DNA from: Maribacter sp.
Lineage (GTDB): Bacteria > Bacteroidota > Bacteroidia > Flavobacteriales > Flavobacteriaceae
Assembly: GCA_018679695.1 (NCBI GenBank)
Contig: JAHHKH010000300.1
Coordinates: 1-46,418, forward strand
DNA length: 46,418 nucleotides
Direction: 5' to 3'
This document shows positions 27,660-33,083 of the stretch, one piece after another (position 1 is the stretch's first letter; each line of letters begins with the position of its first letter). The position numbers were made by a program, and so were the translations under genes. A model generated the notes under the pieces. The model was not told where the DNA came from. It saw only the letters and a program-made list of their open reading frames with translations, and searched no databases.

Positions 27660-29192
27660 TTAAAACCTAAAGTTAAGCCCACTATAAACACCAACACTGA
27701 AAGGTTGAAAATTACCGGAAGTATCAGAAAAAGTGTTTAATTGATATTTAAAAACAGGCTCTATATTCAATTGTATTTTTGGGGAGAATTTGTAATTGAC
27801 CCCAAAACCAATATTAGTGCTAAAATTCACATCATTCACATTATTTGCCTCACCCATTTCGGTTATTAATTCACCGGAGGTAAGGGTTACCGAATTATCA
27901 ATTAAAAATAGGGAACTCATACCTCCAATTAAGTTGATTCCGAATTTACGATCAAGCAGCGTATAATTCAACTCCAAAGGCACTTCCAAGTACCCAAATT
28001 GCTGGGCCATAACCCCTAATAGTGAGGGGTCTTGTGCGGAAACTTCCAAGGTCGAATTTTCCGTTAGGGAATTACCGACGGTTGCCTTACTTTCAACCAC
28101 AATATTCCTTGAGGCACGGCTATAATCAATATTATCAATTTGACCATTTCCAAAACCCGTTAATGTTGAGGAAAACTGTACATCATTGGTATTATAACCA
28201 TAATCTACCTTATGAACACCTGTTTTTATAGACAGCTTTTTGTTTATTTCATAAGAAACAGCCAGACCATAACTTAGATTAACATCACCCGATTTTGAAT
28301 TAGGTACGAAAATTGAAGAGACCGGAGAACCTTCTCCAATAGCGCTGAAATAAACGGGTGCAATACTTGGTCCTGCGGACCATTTGCCTTTCGCGGTCTC
28401 TGCGACCTCCGATTCTTCTTCCTGTTCTGCAATTTCATCAAAGATTGACTTTTTACCTTCCGCGGTCTTCTTGTCGGGATCTTCAGTATTCACTTGGGCA
28501 ACTGTTTCTTCAGTATTTTCATCACTATTTTCTTTTCCATTTTTTTCATTCCCCGATTGCGTGAAATCCTCGTTTAAGGCCGGTTTTTTAGTTGATTTTG
28601 CAGCTTCATTAATTGCTATAACGCTTTCTTTATCCTGGGTGGTAACATCCTTGAATTTATCCACTAATCTGGCCTTACCATTCTTTTTGTTCACAATTGC
28701 AATACGTGAATTCGTTGGTTTTGGTTCATTGAATACACTTTTTGGATTACCATTCTTCACAGTCTTTCCATTCTCCATAGAGGTAGTTTGGGAATCAGAT
28801 TCCCTAGTTCGATCTAAACTGGGATCAATCGCATTTGTTTTAATCTTTTGGGTATTATCGGATTTCGAACCCTCAGTAACTTGAGGTGTATTTGCGATGG
28901 GTAGATCATCAATAGGATTTACTTCCTCTTGCTGTTTTTCCTTCACGTTCTCAACCTCAGTACTTATAGGGTTGGTTTCATTATCTTGATCCTTGAAGGG
29001 ATTGATAAGAAACATGCCAATTGCCAATACCGCGGCAATACCGCCCAGTTTCCACCAGAAGGGGATGACTGTTCGGGTTTTTTTCTTTTTATTCAAAGAG
29101 CTTTCAATGGATTTCCAGACTTTTTCTGTAGGGAAGTCCGAATAATCCTTGAATTTCTCTTGGAATATTTTGTCTAGGTTCTTTTTGCTCAT
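27660..29192 (-). CDS. Single-TM plus outer-membrane beta-barrel protein (sigma-factor-linked, anti-sigma-like topology)
   Basis: N-terminal cytoplasmic about 45 aa, TM (WWKLGGIAAVLAIGMFLI), long charged low-complexity linker, C-terminal beta-barrel ending SVGVYSGLNFRF. Confidence 0.65.
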   Translation of the reverse strand: MSKKNLDKIFQEKFKDYSDFPTEKVWKSIESSLNKKKKTRTVIPFWWKLGGIAAVLAIGMFLINPFKDQDNETNPISTEVENVKEKQQEEVNPIDDLPIANTPQVTEGSKSDNTQKIKTNAIDPSLDRTRESDSQTTSMENGKTVKNGNPKSVFNEPKPTNSRIAIVNKKNGKARLVDKFKDVTTQDKESVIAINEAAKSTKKPALNEDFTQSGNEKNGKENSDENTEETVAQVNTEDPDKKTAEGKKSIFDEIAEQEEESEVAETAKGKWSAGPSIAPVYFSAIGEGSPVSSIFVPNSKSGDVNLSYGLAVSYEINKKLSIKTGVHKVDYGYNTNDVQFSSTLTGFGNGQIDNIDYSRASRNIVVESKATVGNSLTENSTLEVSAQDPSLLGVMAQQFGYLEVPLELNYTLLDRKFGINLIGGMSSLFLIDNSVTLTSGELITEMGEANNVNDVNFSTNIGFGVNYKFSPKIQLNIEPVFKYQLNTFSDTSGNFQPFSVGVYSGLNFRF

Positions 29193-29251: not shown

Positions 29252-29818
29252 TTATATTGTTCCTCCCAGGGCAACTATTAAAATGCCAATAATTGCTCTG
29301 GATGTTTTGTTTTCTATTTTTTCCTTCAAGATCATTCTAGCACGAGCGAGATTTGATTTTGAGGTGCCAGGGGATGTGCCTAACATTGAACTTATCTCCT
29401 TGTGTGAATACCCATCCAACACATAGAGATTGAAAGTCAATCGATATTTGTTCGGTAATTCCTGTATATATTTTAAAAGCGTTTGTAAGCCGATGTCCTC
29501 ATATTCCGATTCTACATCTACTTCTTCTGTCACATTATCCGAAACCACTTTCAGGTATTCTTCTTTTCTGTATTTCTGTAAAACTGTATTAATGGTTATT
29601 CTTTTAATCCATCCTTCGAAGGAGCCTTTGGACTTATATTGACCTATTTTTTCAAAAATGGTCATAAAACTATCATGAAGGCTATCTTCTGCCTCCGCTT
29701 TATTGCGCGAATATTTGAGACAGATACCGAACAGTATATTGGAATATTTCCGATACACTTGTTCTTGTGCCTTTCTATTGCCTTTTTTACATTTTTCTAT
29801 GAGTTCTTCCAGACTCAA
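29252..29818 (-). CDS. ECF-type RNA polymerase sigma factor
   Basis: SLEELIEKCKKGNRKAQEQVYRKYSNILFGICLKYSRNKAEAEDSLHDSFMTIFEKI; region 4 YSHKEISSMLGTSPGTSKSNLARAR. Confidence 0.92.
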   Translation of the reverse strand: MSLEELIEKCKKGNRKAQEQVYRKYSNILFGICLKYSRNKAEAEDSLHDSFMTIFEKIGQYKSKGSFEGWIKRITINTVLQKYRKEEYLKVVSDNVTEEVDVESEYEDIGLQTLLKYIQELPNKYRLTFNLYVLDGYSHKEISSMLGTSPGTSKSNLARARMILKEKIENKTSRAIIGILIVALGGTI

Positions 29819-29844: not shown

Positions 29845-30264
29845 TTAATTCACCGGAACTTCAACTTCTAAAAACTGTTGTTCTCCGTTAGCATCTTCTC
29901 CTTGATAAAATCTAAACAAATATTCCTGATCGTAAAGCACTACAAAATCGAAAGAGGCCATTTCTTGCCTCACAACTTCTGTACAAGCCTCCTGATCAGT
30001 TCGCTTTGCACCCACAGCAACTACCTTACGTATACTTGTTGCTTCCTTGACTACATCGAATCCTTCATAAAAGGTACATCCGTCAGGAATGGTATACGTA
30101 ACATTGATTTCGTAAGTTTCATTGAGGTCAAACGATTCAGGCATCTCAACACTTTCTATTACCAAGGGTACAAAATGAAAGTTTGGGCCATCATCTCCCA
30201 AATCACAAGAAGTAAAAGATAGGGATACCAAAATGGCAATAAGCACTAAAAACGTCCTATTCAT
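29845..30264 (-). CDS. Hypothetical lipoprotein
   Basis: Lipobox LVSLSFTSCDLGDDG; same strand directly upstream of the sigma factor gene. Confidence 0.65.
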   Translation of the reverse strand: MNRTFLVLIAILVSLSFTSCDLGDDGPNFHFVPLVIESVEMPESFDLNETYEINVTYTIPDGCTFYEGFDVVKEATSIRKVVAVGAKRTDQEACTEVVRQEMASFDFVVLYDQEYLFRFYQGEDANGEQQFLEVEVPVN

Positions 30265-30394
30265 AAGCTAATAATTTTATTTCTAAGATGAAACTATTTG
30301 ATTATGGTTGCGTTCATTGACGTTAAGGTACAAGAAAAGTAGTTTAGTTCTAAGATCAGCTTTACCAAAAGGATCAAAATTCACCTTGTAAGCA

Positions 30395-30444: not shown

Positions 30445-31449
30445 TTAATGAACCGCTTTGATAGCTTCCCGAATTTTGGCATCCAATTCTTCATACAACT
30501 CAGGATTGTCATTCAAAAGGGCTTTAACGGCATCTCGACCTTGCCCTAGTTTGGTATCACCGTAACTGAACCAAGAACCACTTTTCTTTATGATTTCATA
30601 TTCTACCCCTAAGTCGATGATTTCACCCACTTTGGATATACCTTCACCATACATGATATCGAATTCGGCCAGTTTAAAGGGTGGGGCCACCTTATTTTTA
30701 ACCACTTTTACCCTGGTTTTATTACCTTGAACCCCCCCATCTGTATCTTTGATTTGTGTTGACCTCCTGATATCCAATCGTACCGAAGCATAGAACTTCA
30801 ATGCATTACCCCCGGTAGTGGTTTCAGGATTACCGAACATGACCCCGATTTTTTCCCTCAATTGGTTAATGAAAATGACCGTACAATTGGTTTTGCTGAT
30901 AGATCCGGTTAATTTTCGCAAAGCCTGGGACATTAATCGTGCATGTAGCCCCATTTTAGAATCCCCCATTTCACCTTCAATTTCACTTTTAGGGGTCAAG
31001 GCGGCTACAGAATCGATTACAACGATATCGATAGCACCTGATCGGATTAAATTATCAGTAATTTCCAGGGCTTGTTCACCATTGTCGGGCTGCGAAATAA
31101 TCAAGTTATCGATATCAATACCTAATTTTTCAGCATAAAAACGATCAAAGGCATGCTCAGCGTCAATAAAAGCTGCTATACCCCCATTTTTTTGTGCCTC
31201 GGCAATAGCATGGAGTGTTAAGGTGGTTTTACCTGAAGATTCAGGCCCATATATTTCTATTACCCTTCCACGGGGATACCCCCCCACACCTAAGGCAATA
31301 TCAAGACCCAAAGAACCCGAGGGTATTACTTCAACATCTTCAACAATACTATCTCCCATCTTCATTACGGCTCCTTTGCCGTAAGTCTTGTCCAATTTAT
31401 CTAAGGTAAGTTTTAATGCTTTTAATTTTGCGTCTTTTTCAGAACTCAT
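30445..31449 (-). CDS. recA: Recombinase RecA
   Basis: [60 protein letters not shown]. Confidence 0.98.
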
Positions 31450-31465
31450 TTCGTATAAAATTAGG

Positions 31466-31482
31466 AATGCTAATTTAGCATT
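31466..31482. promoter_or_regulatory. 17-bp inverted repeat AATGCTAA-T-TTAGCATT upstream of recA
   Basis: Perfect 8-bp arms with 1-nt spacer, starting 17 nt upstream of the recA ATG. Confidence 0.4.
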
Positions 31483-31611
31483 TCTTTTTGCATAAAACCA
31501 TCACCTCAAATTATTTTATACACAGTTTCACGTGTCAGTATTTTTTCTAGACGCAACCTTTTAGTAAATATCACATCTAAACTTAAAAGGGTACTCACTA
31601 ACTCTATATAT

Positions 31612-31738
31612 AAACCATTTGTCTTAGGACAATGGGCCTCGGTGGCCATTTCCTTTTTACCTTTCATAAGAATGCTATGAAAAAGAAAAATAGGGTGGCC
31701 AATTAAGAGTCTTGATAATTTCAGGACTCTTTTTTTGT
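31612..31738 (+). ncRNA. Candidate structured small RNA (or leader RNA) with intrinsic terminator; possibly 6S-like, unverified
   Basis: Hairpin CCATTTGTC-TTAG-GACAATGG (615-635 of 31k), rod hairpin 31644-31701 closed by GGCCA/TGGCC, terminator 31706-31732 followed by T tract. Confidence 0.5.
31706..31738 (+). terminator. Intrinsic terminator, + strand, with no upstream + strand annotated gene
   Basis: AAGAGTCTTGA-taatt-TTCAGGACTCTT (one G-T pair), then TTTTTT run. Confidence 0.8.
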
Positions 31739-31807
31739 TTTGTGACCCATTCTAATCCTTCAAGAAATACCATAGGTCGCTTATGCCTTTAATTTTTCCA
31801 TAAAATG

Positions 31808-31815
31808 TATCTTTG
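31808..31815 (+). promoter_or_regulatory. Bacteroidota -7 element TATCTTTG for the U32 gene
   Basis: TAnnTTTG match, 14-26 nt before the candidate start codons 31830/31842. Confidence 0.5.
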
Positions 31816-31829
31816 CAATCCTGAAGGTT

Positions 31830-33083
31830 ATGCTTGAATTCATGACAAGAAACGGACAAATAGAACTGATGGCTCCAGCTGGGAATTTCGAATCACTCCA
31901 AGCAGCTATCGCCAATGGAGCTGACTCGGTATATTTTGGTGTTGAGCAATTGAATATGCGGGCCAGGGCGAGTATTAACTTTACATTGGAAGACTTGCCA
32001 GAGATTGCGAAGCGATGCAAAAAAGGCGGTATAAGAACGTATCTTACTTTAAATACGATAATTTACGATCATGATTTATCGATAATCAAAATCATGTTGG
32101 ATGAGGCCAAAAATGCGAATATTACAGCTGTAATAGCAATGGACCAGGCTGTCATTGCCTATGCAAGGCAAATTAACATGGAGGTGCATATTTCCACTCA
32201 AATAAACATTACCAACATTGAAACTGTGAAGTTTTATTCCCTTTTTGCCGATACCGTTGTTCTGAGTCGTGAATTGAGTTTGCGTCAAATAAGGAATATA
32301 TGCAACCAAATTAAAAAAGGGAATATAAAGGGACCCTCAGGCAATTTGGTAGAAGTTGAGGTTTTTGGTCATGGGGCCCTTTGCATGGCAGTATCGGGTA
32401 AATGCTATTTAAGTCTACACTCCCATAATTCATCAGCCAATAGAGGTGCCTGTAAGCAAAATTGTCGTAAAAAATATACTGTCATTGATCAAGAAAGTGG
32501 TTTTGAGATTGAGATTGACAATGAATACATGATGTCGCCCAAAGATTTGTGCACTTTGGACTTTTTAGATCAAATTATCGATTCCGGGGTAAAAGTCTTA
32601 AAGATTGAGGGTAGAGGTCGATCGTCAGAATATGTTGCAACGGTTATAAAAACGTATAGAGAGGCGATTGATGCACATACAGAAGGAACATTTTCCAAGG
32701 ATAAGGTTGCCATTTGGATGAAAGAACTCCAAAAAGTTTATAATAGAGGTTTTTGGGGGGGATATTACCTCGGACAAAAACTTGGGGAATGGAGTGATGG
32801 TCCGGGCACACAGGCGAGTCAAAAGAAATTATACATAGGCAAAGGCGTTCACTATTATCCTCGACCCGGTATTGCAGAGTTCAAGATTGAGGCTTTTGAT
32901 ATACAGGTGGGGGATTCCCTGCTCATCACTGGCCCAACGACCGGGGTAAGGGAAATTGAATTGGAACAGATGATGGTTGATGACCTCTATGCGTCAAAGG
33001 CAAAAAAGGGAAAGAACTGCACCTTTCCTACCGGTTTTAAAATAAGGCCATCGGACAAACTTTATAAACTTGTCAAAGAGTAA
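31830..33083 (+). CDS. trhP: Peptidase U32 family protein, TrhP (YegQ)-like tRNA hydroxylation protein
   Basis: ELMAPAGNFESLQAAIANGADSVYFG, VVLSRELSLRQI, EVFGHGALCMAVSGKCYLS, RGACKQNCRKKY, LKIEGRGRSSEYVATVIKTYREAID. Alternative start ATG 31842. Confidence 0.8.
   Translation: MLEFMTRNGQIELMAPAGNFESLQAAIANGADSVYFGVEQLNMRARASINFTLEDLPEIAKRCKKGGIRTYLTLNTIIYDHDLSIIKIMLDEAKNANITAVIAMDQAVIAYARQINMEVHISTQINITNIETVKFYSLFADTVVLSRELSLRQIRNICNQIKKGNIKGPSGNLVEVEVFGHGALCMAVSGKCYLSLHSHNSSANRGACKQNCRKKYTVIDQESGFEIEIDNEYMMSPKDLCTLDFLDQIIDSGVKVLKIEGRGRSSEYVATVIKTYREAIDAHTEGTFSKDKVAIWMKELQKVYNRGFWGGYYLGQKLGEWSDGPGTQASQKKLYIGKGVHYYPRPGIAEFKIEAFDIQVGDSLLITGPTTGVREIELEQMMVDDLYASKAKKGKNCTFPTGFKIRPSDKLYKLVKE

Follow-up and report, generated by a model that had tools for sequence, protein, structure and literature searches.

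A recA-linked small RNA of Maribacter with an ECF-type promoter and predicted pairing to a dnaJ-linked small RNA of the Flavobacteriaceae

A strong intrinsic terminator with no gene before it on its own strand raises the question of which transcript it ends. Such a terminator lies in the 46,418-nucleotide stretch of Maribacter sp. DNA analysed here (the window), on the + strand between recA and a U32/TrhP gene, where a preliminary description made from the letters alone had noted it together with two upstream hairpins and had proposed a structured RNA, either a stand-alone (perhaps 6S-type) small RNA (sRNA) or a terminator-controlled leader of the tRNA-hydroxylation genes downstream. To our knowledge, most classical RNA regulators are missing from Bacteroidota, and the sRNAs of the Flavobacteriaceae are largely uncharacterized. 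We find that positions 31579–31738 of the + strand hold a stand-alone, structured and terminated RNA that had not previously been listed. It is almost certainly a small RNA and, as judged from the sequences of Maribacter and related marine bacteria, a conserved, presumably trans-acting sRNA of about 150 nucleotides. The features of the locus are as follows.

30445–31449, − strand: recA, the divergent neighbour of the sRNA (Pfam RecA, NCBIfam TIGR02012)
31551–31578, + strand: ECF-type promoter of the sRNA, with ACGCAACC at 31551–31558 (−35 like), a 15-nt spacer and CATCT at 31574–31578 (−10 like)
31585–31738, + strand: the sRNA, about 150 nt, from covariation on 35 sequences (match of the covariance model R1 at 31579–31735, 145.4 bits)
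31597–31604, + strand: conserved, single-stranded 5' element ACTAACTC, almost invariant among the 35 sequences
31615–31635, + strand: stem-loop 1, two-sided changes across relatives in 5 of 5 modelled pairs
31643–31702, + strand: stem-loop 2, a rod that presents the conserved loop, two-sided changes in 7 of 14 pairs
31675–31685, + strand: core of the conserved loop, CUAUGAAAAAG, which complements the seed CUUUUUCAUAG of a dnaJ-linked sRNA, the duplex continuing on both sides
31705–31738, + strand: intrinsic terminator, an 11-bp stem and T tract, with pairing in 100% of the cells of the 35 sequences
31808–31815, + strand: −7 box TATCTTTG of a U32 sigma-A promoter, separate from the sRNA (read from the sequence)

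All the elements noted in the preliminary description are present at the positions given there. The terminator, which reads AAGAGTCTTGA-TAATT-TCAGGACTCTT and then runs into its T tract, is the single good + strand terminator here and is indeed preceded by no + strand gene, the principal genes between 27660 and 31449 all lying on the minus strand; two terminator-like sites of that quality were found, against 0.3 expected from shuffles of the region. The folding energy of 31560–31750 is −51.3 kcal/mol, compared with −35.8 ± 4.3 kcal/mol for dinucleotide shuffles (z −3.6, with none of 200 shuffles equalling it). Given the promoter at 31551–31578, an element which the preliminary description overlooked, the 5' end probably lies near 31585, 6–8 nt past the −10 element, and the 3' end presumably at the T tract, which would give a transcript of the length stated above. 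Both of the hairpins described earlier fold. Homologues do not generally have the apical TTTCAT/ATGAAA stem of the rod, and what is conserved there is an unpaired loop sequence.

The RNA belongs to a family whose members and common structure were computed from several searches. A DNA search of 60 relatives returned homologues in nine other genomes of the same genus and in three other genera, all adjoining recA, and a scan of the genomes of 84,980 species for the promoter together with the 5' element returned 36 stretches, mostly from Maribacter, Ulvibacterium, Kriegella, Pseudozobellia, Euzebyella and other Flavobacteriaceae, a few of them (L047, L077, L078 and L079) being unrelated or lipoprotein genes. 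Across 35 aligned transcripts the three-hairpin structure comprises 30 pairs, with 95% of cells paired and two-sided changes at 16 pairs, and the covariation is strong. There are 74 double-change cells compared with 25.7 for shuffles (none of 500 had as many), a comparison that is inflated by the relatedness of the sequences; the slid structure controls, in which 40–58% of cells are paired, are free of that weakness. A covariance model built from the transcript, with the promoter left out, matches 37 of 301 Flavobacteriaceae genomes at E values up to 1.7e-5, matches with E between 1e-4 and 0.01 being excluded from the count. At every locus inspected the sRNA is divergent from recA, and in all 20 of the additional genomes found with the model it adjoins recA, which is itself followed by a lipoprotein–ECF–anti-sigma operon. 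Of 20 further genomes picked by their ECF orthologue and without a model match, 13 have a diverged RNA at the corresponding position, again with this loop; one (L175, genome G210) has promoter and terminator with the loop missing, and six, L179 among them, have no RNA. Taken together, the structural evidence for a new sRNA family is strong. Several side observations were made at these loci. In G210 the match to the partner sRNA introduced below is weak (5.2e-5); in L179 a small lipoprotein gene behind an ECF-type promoter stands upstream of recA in place of the sRNA; and L173 and L174 hold two copies of the loop motif in the sRNA region (CTGTGAAAAAGAAG and CTATGAAAAAGGA). The recA leader itself, at about 31459–31495 of the window on the − strand, contains a conserved element near the recA start (GCTAAATTACCATTTCTTTTTGCATA in the + strand reading of relatives).

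These data bear directly on the two identities first suggested for the RNA. A 6S-type RNA that binds RNA polymerase would account for the rod-like shape and the A/U-rich internal parts before the terminator, but the conserved loop and the three-hairpin layout are unlike 6S-Flavo, and because the genome's one match to that family (RF01685) lies on a different contig (G000:C278:851-960, + strand, L001; 103.5 bits, the gathering score being 85 bits), the recA-adjacent RNA is not the 6S RNA, a reading to which we assign practically no weight. The search of Rfam proposed earlier yielded no match in the window at the gathering cut-offs and no RF01685 on 31450–31830 at an E value of 10; the matches that do appear at E up to 10 (rimP, SAM-II, AaHKsRNA82 and others) are weak, fall below the cut-off and are taken as chance. 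A terminator-controlled leader would make the RNA a riboswitch or attenuator that acts on the tRNA-hydroxylation gene behind it (U32/TrhP, or TrhO in relatives). In favour of this reading, many genomes have the RNA immediately upstream of such a gene and in the same orientation. We nevertheless regard it as very improbable, since U32 has its own sigma-A box, TATCTTTG, downstream of the terminator, as had already been pointed out (the −7 consensus being TAnnTTTG; PMC9723704), and since the terminator stem pairs in 35 of 35 sequences and the consensus holds no conserved competing pairing. Thus an independent downstream promoter is present and an alternative antiterminator was not found, the reverse of what a riboswitch or attenuator would display. 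Furthermore, U32 falls outside the flank read in several relatives, whereas recA and the ECF operon lie inside it in every case; the constant neighbour at all loci is the recA/ECF side, with its common stress promoter. The stand-alone sRNA with its own terminator is the reading that conservation, covariation and the conserved promoter support.

The genes on that side, together with a second copy of the promoter, are as follows.

30286–30312, − strand: second promoter copy, CGCAACC-N15-CATCT, before the lipoprotein/ECF operon, with the same motif and spacer
29845–30264, − strand: small lipoprotein gene that opens the ECF operon, an open frame with a lipoprotein-like signal, syntenic in relatives and with no Pfam match
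29252–29818, − strand: ECF sigma factor gene, whose product is proposed to activate the sRNA (Pfam Sigma70_r2 and Sigma70_r4_2, NCBIfam sigma70-ECF superfamily)
27660–29192, − strand: probable anti-sigma factor gene, 510 residues, with a C-terminal PF13568 OMP_b-brl_2 domain

The product of the last gene is a probable anti-sigma factor by its position and layout, which consists of a short N-terminal part, one hydrophobic segment, a long linker and a C-terminal outer-membrane beta-barrel domain; PF13568 was recognized in it and in four of the five orthologues tested. The promoter shared by the sRNA and the sigma operon is a computed result. GCAACC-N15-CATCT stands upstream of the sRNA in every homologue first collected, and the promoter is recognizable in 19 of 20 genomes found by the promoter-free model, an association which is independent because the searching model held no promoter. 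The −10 element is mostly CATCT, with TATCT and, once, CGTCT as variants in distant relatives. In ten whole genomes the exact CGCAACC-N15-CATCT occurs at 2–5 places per genome, which invariably include the sRNA and the ECF operon, and the reversed-pattern control gave 0 in nine of these genomes and 1 in the tenth. The exact motif is found just twice in G007, G009, G010 and G029, and in three Maribacter genomes at the sRNA and the ECF operon only; in the present genome it is found at the sRNA, at 30286–30312 and at one more place (reversed control 0). Sites with one mismatch did not exceed the reversed-pattern control in the two genomes in which they were counted (5 versus 5 and 12 versus 11), and a wider ECF regulon was discarded for these on that ground. 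Given the few exact copies per genome, the sRNA ranks among a very small number of direct targets predicted for the sigma factor, and looks like a main output of it. By the sequence criterion, then, the ECF-type promoter expected of an ECF- or sigma-E-dependent sRNA is present, and it is shared with the presumably autoregulated ECF operon. The sRNA is very probably ECF-driven, and from the shared motif and the position we infer that it is the neighbouring sigma factor which reads its promoter. Additional exact copies were observed directly before lipoprotein genes in L181, L201, L202 and L203, and with no clear gene behind them in L190 and L191; the stretches after the promoter in the latter two resemble each other (ATGACTA-STTTTTTTG) and may constitute another small transcript.

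What might such an RNA act upon? A search with the complement of its loop (CTTTTTCATAG) led to a single place, intergenic and orthologous in the three Maribacter genomes searched, flanked by dnaJ and an ABC-transporter gene, and this locus also accounts for the recurrent 19–20-nt matches in the DNA search of 60 relatives. In the present genome it is:

G000:C200:2333-2424 (L312), − strand: dnaJ-linked sRNA with the invariant seed UUUUCUUUUUCAUAGCAAUUUUUU

Its parts are, in order, the sigma-A box TATATTTG, a 5' hairpin, the single-stranded seed AAUUUUCUUUUUCAUAGCAAUUUUUUU and a terminator, and all 20 of 20 aligned sequences have this promoter, two hairpins and the invariant seed. The dnaJ-linked sRNA has no Rfam match, and a model of it matches 273 of 301 Flavobacteriaceae genomes, mostly in single copy, the weakest of these matches being possibly due to chance. 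Because this prevalence is 91%, the co-occurrence of the two sRNAs is weak evidence for their interaction.

The complementarity itself and the pattern of substitutions in it were both computed. Loop CUAUGAAAAAG and the partner seed share about 15–22 bp of complementarity, worth −22.5 kcal/mol in this genome. In the 26 genomes in which both RNAs were read, it is invariably the loop that forms the best duplex, with energies of −14.5 to −25.7 kcal/mol and z values of −2.4 to −6.9 relative to shuffled RNA. When whole RNAs were cofolded, nine of the ten tested showed a net gain of 10 to 19.5 kcal/mol, a gain which 0 of 40 loop shuffles matched for those nine; the exception, L055, has an incompatible A-to-C change and little net pairing energy. 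One insertion is present in the loop of L165. As the seed is invariant, the kind of change tolerated in the loop separates pairing from an mRNA-like constraint. Transitions were seen at all seven wobble-tolerant positions of the loop core (C1, A3 and A6–A10) and at none of the four at which they would break a pair (U2, U4, G5 and G11; Fisher p=0.003), in a test that comprises 11 positions and sequences that are related and hence non-independent. The eight positions directly 5' of the loop core vary in other ways. Loops other than the aligned ones were gathered with a regular expression that gave preference to A/G at certain positions. Neither the aligned set nor the model matches L081–L130 (all recovered) depend on this expression. 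Computationally, the loop thus has what is expected of a sponge, namely extended, accessible complementarity to the seed of another sRNA that is kept in evolution. We consider it likely that the recA-linked sRNA pairs with the dnaJ-linked RNA in the cell and, should it do so, a sponge role would be modestly favoured. The direction of control between the two is a guess, and the partner could instead destabilize the ECF-driven RNA.

Three other readings of the conserved parts deserve consideration. As the partner seed also matches mRNA starts of the type AUGAAAAAG, the loop could mimic such a start for another reason. It might likewise be a micro-ORF that encodes a short peptide from AUGAAAAAG: an AUG or GUG followed by lysine codons is conserved, and changes at position 8 are synonymous, but the frame after the lysines, its length and its stop differ between close relatives. 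Moreover, position 11 is always G, although A would be synonymous there if the triplet coded for lysine; this argues against a conserved peptide and fits pairing instead of coding; on frame and position 11 a small ORF in the loop was rejected, and we hold it to be a very slim chance. Pairing of the loop with the seed leaves the invariant 5' element of the sRNA unexplained. The third reading is direct action on mRNAs, in the manner of MicA or RybB of the E. coli sigma-E response. The 5' element ACUAACUCAA of the ECF-dependent sRNA would pair with UUGAGUUAGU sites in the 3' regions behind susD, outer-membrane glycan-uptake proteins would be lowered, and the loop would be a second site for pairing with mRNA or for binding a protein. 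This idea was suggested by the occurrence of the 5' element's complement, TTGAGTTAGT, after susD stops: in three Maribacter genomes it is nearly always intergenic, often 10–58 nt past the susD stop and before a terminator, sometimes twice, and the element (ACTAACTC / ACUAACUC) is itself almost invariant (n=35). However, the motif is as enriched in genomes of the family that have no recA-linked sRNA (G030, G100, G186, G220 and G251), it stays in G218, whose sRNA has lost ACTAACTC, and pairing in 3' regions instead of at start codons would be unusual. Co-variation of the susD 3' motifs with the 5' element across lineages found no support, as the motif also occurs where the sRNA is absent, and the susD link is a lead and not evidence. 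Direct action on these mRNAs is rather unlikely, and it can be compatible with pairing and titration of the dnaJ-linked sRNA. As an observation in its own right, TTGAGTTAGT(T) is enriched family-wide, with or without the recA-linked sRNA, and in L252–L281, L282, L298 and L306 it is often doubled and lies soon after the stops of susD and other genes, just before terminators.

The explanation that we favour, to which we would assign a probability of about 0.7, is that of an ECF-induced sRNA which pairs with and titrates the dnaJ-linked sRNA. The trigger is probably a signal of the outer membrane or envelope, because the putative, membrane-tethered anti-sigma partner carries an outer-membrane barrel domain, and the sigma factor two genes beyond recA, or one of the same specificity, would transcribe the sRNA from its ECF-type promoter. 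The purine-rich loop CUAUGAAAAAG of the sRNA would base-pair with the single-stranded seed of the family-wide dnaJ-linked sRNA, and the titration of the latter would relieve mRNAs with AUGAAAAAG-like starts, which encode exported and outer-membrane proteins. More tentatively, and as a bolder proposal that we would not yet back at even odds, the direct regulon of the ECF factor may consist essentially of its own operon and one sRNA, with the entire envelope response relayed by titration of a FopS-like, dnaJ-linked core sRNA.

Sigma-E-dependent sRNAs and sRNA sponges are kinds of regulator known elsewhere, the former including MicA, RybB and MicL of E. coli and the latter RbsZ (for RybB) and SroC (for GcvB), the known sponges being mostly processed from mRNAs. 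The recA-linked RNA would resemble RbsZ and SroC in mimicking an mRNA target and occupying the seed of another sRNA, and differs from them in having its own stress-sigma promoter. With MicA, RybB and MicL, as with FoxI and FoxJ of Fusobacterium (PMC11005410), sigma-E-dependent sRNAs of other phyla, it has in common an ECF-type promoter, an envelope-stress regulon (here a putative one) and an end at an intrinsic terminator. Unlike those RNAs, it lies beside the sigma operon, its exact promoter has hardly any other copies in the genome and the pairing partner with the best support is another sRNA; no relation in sequence is claimed. In Flavobacterium psychrophilum, an ECF-like motif, SM6, whose −10 is described as a CGT box, covers T9SS genes and drives an ECF/anti-sigma pair as well as the sRNA Rfp11 (PMC9723704). 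In the present case, too, ECF-type promoters precede both the operon of an ECF factor with its anti-sigma partner and a structured, conserved sRNA, and the bacteria belong to the same family (Rfp11 was compared by description); the difference is that the −10 is mostly CATCT and not the CGT box. The dnaJ-linked sRNA, for its part, recalls FopS of Bacteroides thetaiotaomicron, whose R1' seed consensus contains UUUUUCAUAG, which blocks susC translation at the start codon and which belongs to a multicopy family of Bacteroidaceae whose seed is at the 5' end (PMC11697453). The seed of the dnaJ-linked sRNA has the same 10 nt, UUUUUCAUAG, as the published 35-nt consensus, and this RNA thus shares the R1 seed of FopS/GibS. 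The seed is however placed between two hairpins and not at the 5' terminus, and the RNA is nearly always single-copy, behind dnaJ, and found in Flavobacteriaceae. A literature search with the promoter string and the seed string returned nothing relevant and, to the best of our search, a stress-sigma-driven sRNA that lies beside its own sigma operon and pairs with a family-wide sRNA is a new combination.

If the proposed circuit is true, the recA-linked sRNA is the working arm of an envelope-stress response, and the dnaJ-linked core sRNA would control the translation of exported and outer-membrane proteins. Neither of the two sRNA families matches Rfam at the thresholds applied, and one of them is nearly universal in the Flavobacteriaceae. 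Together with the sigma operon they outline a testable circuit of an anti-sigma factor with an outer-membrane barrel, an ECF sigma factor and an sRNA–sRNA interaction, and the promoter motif allows the regulon of this ECF group to be read from genomes.
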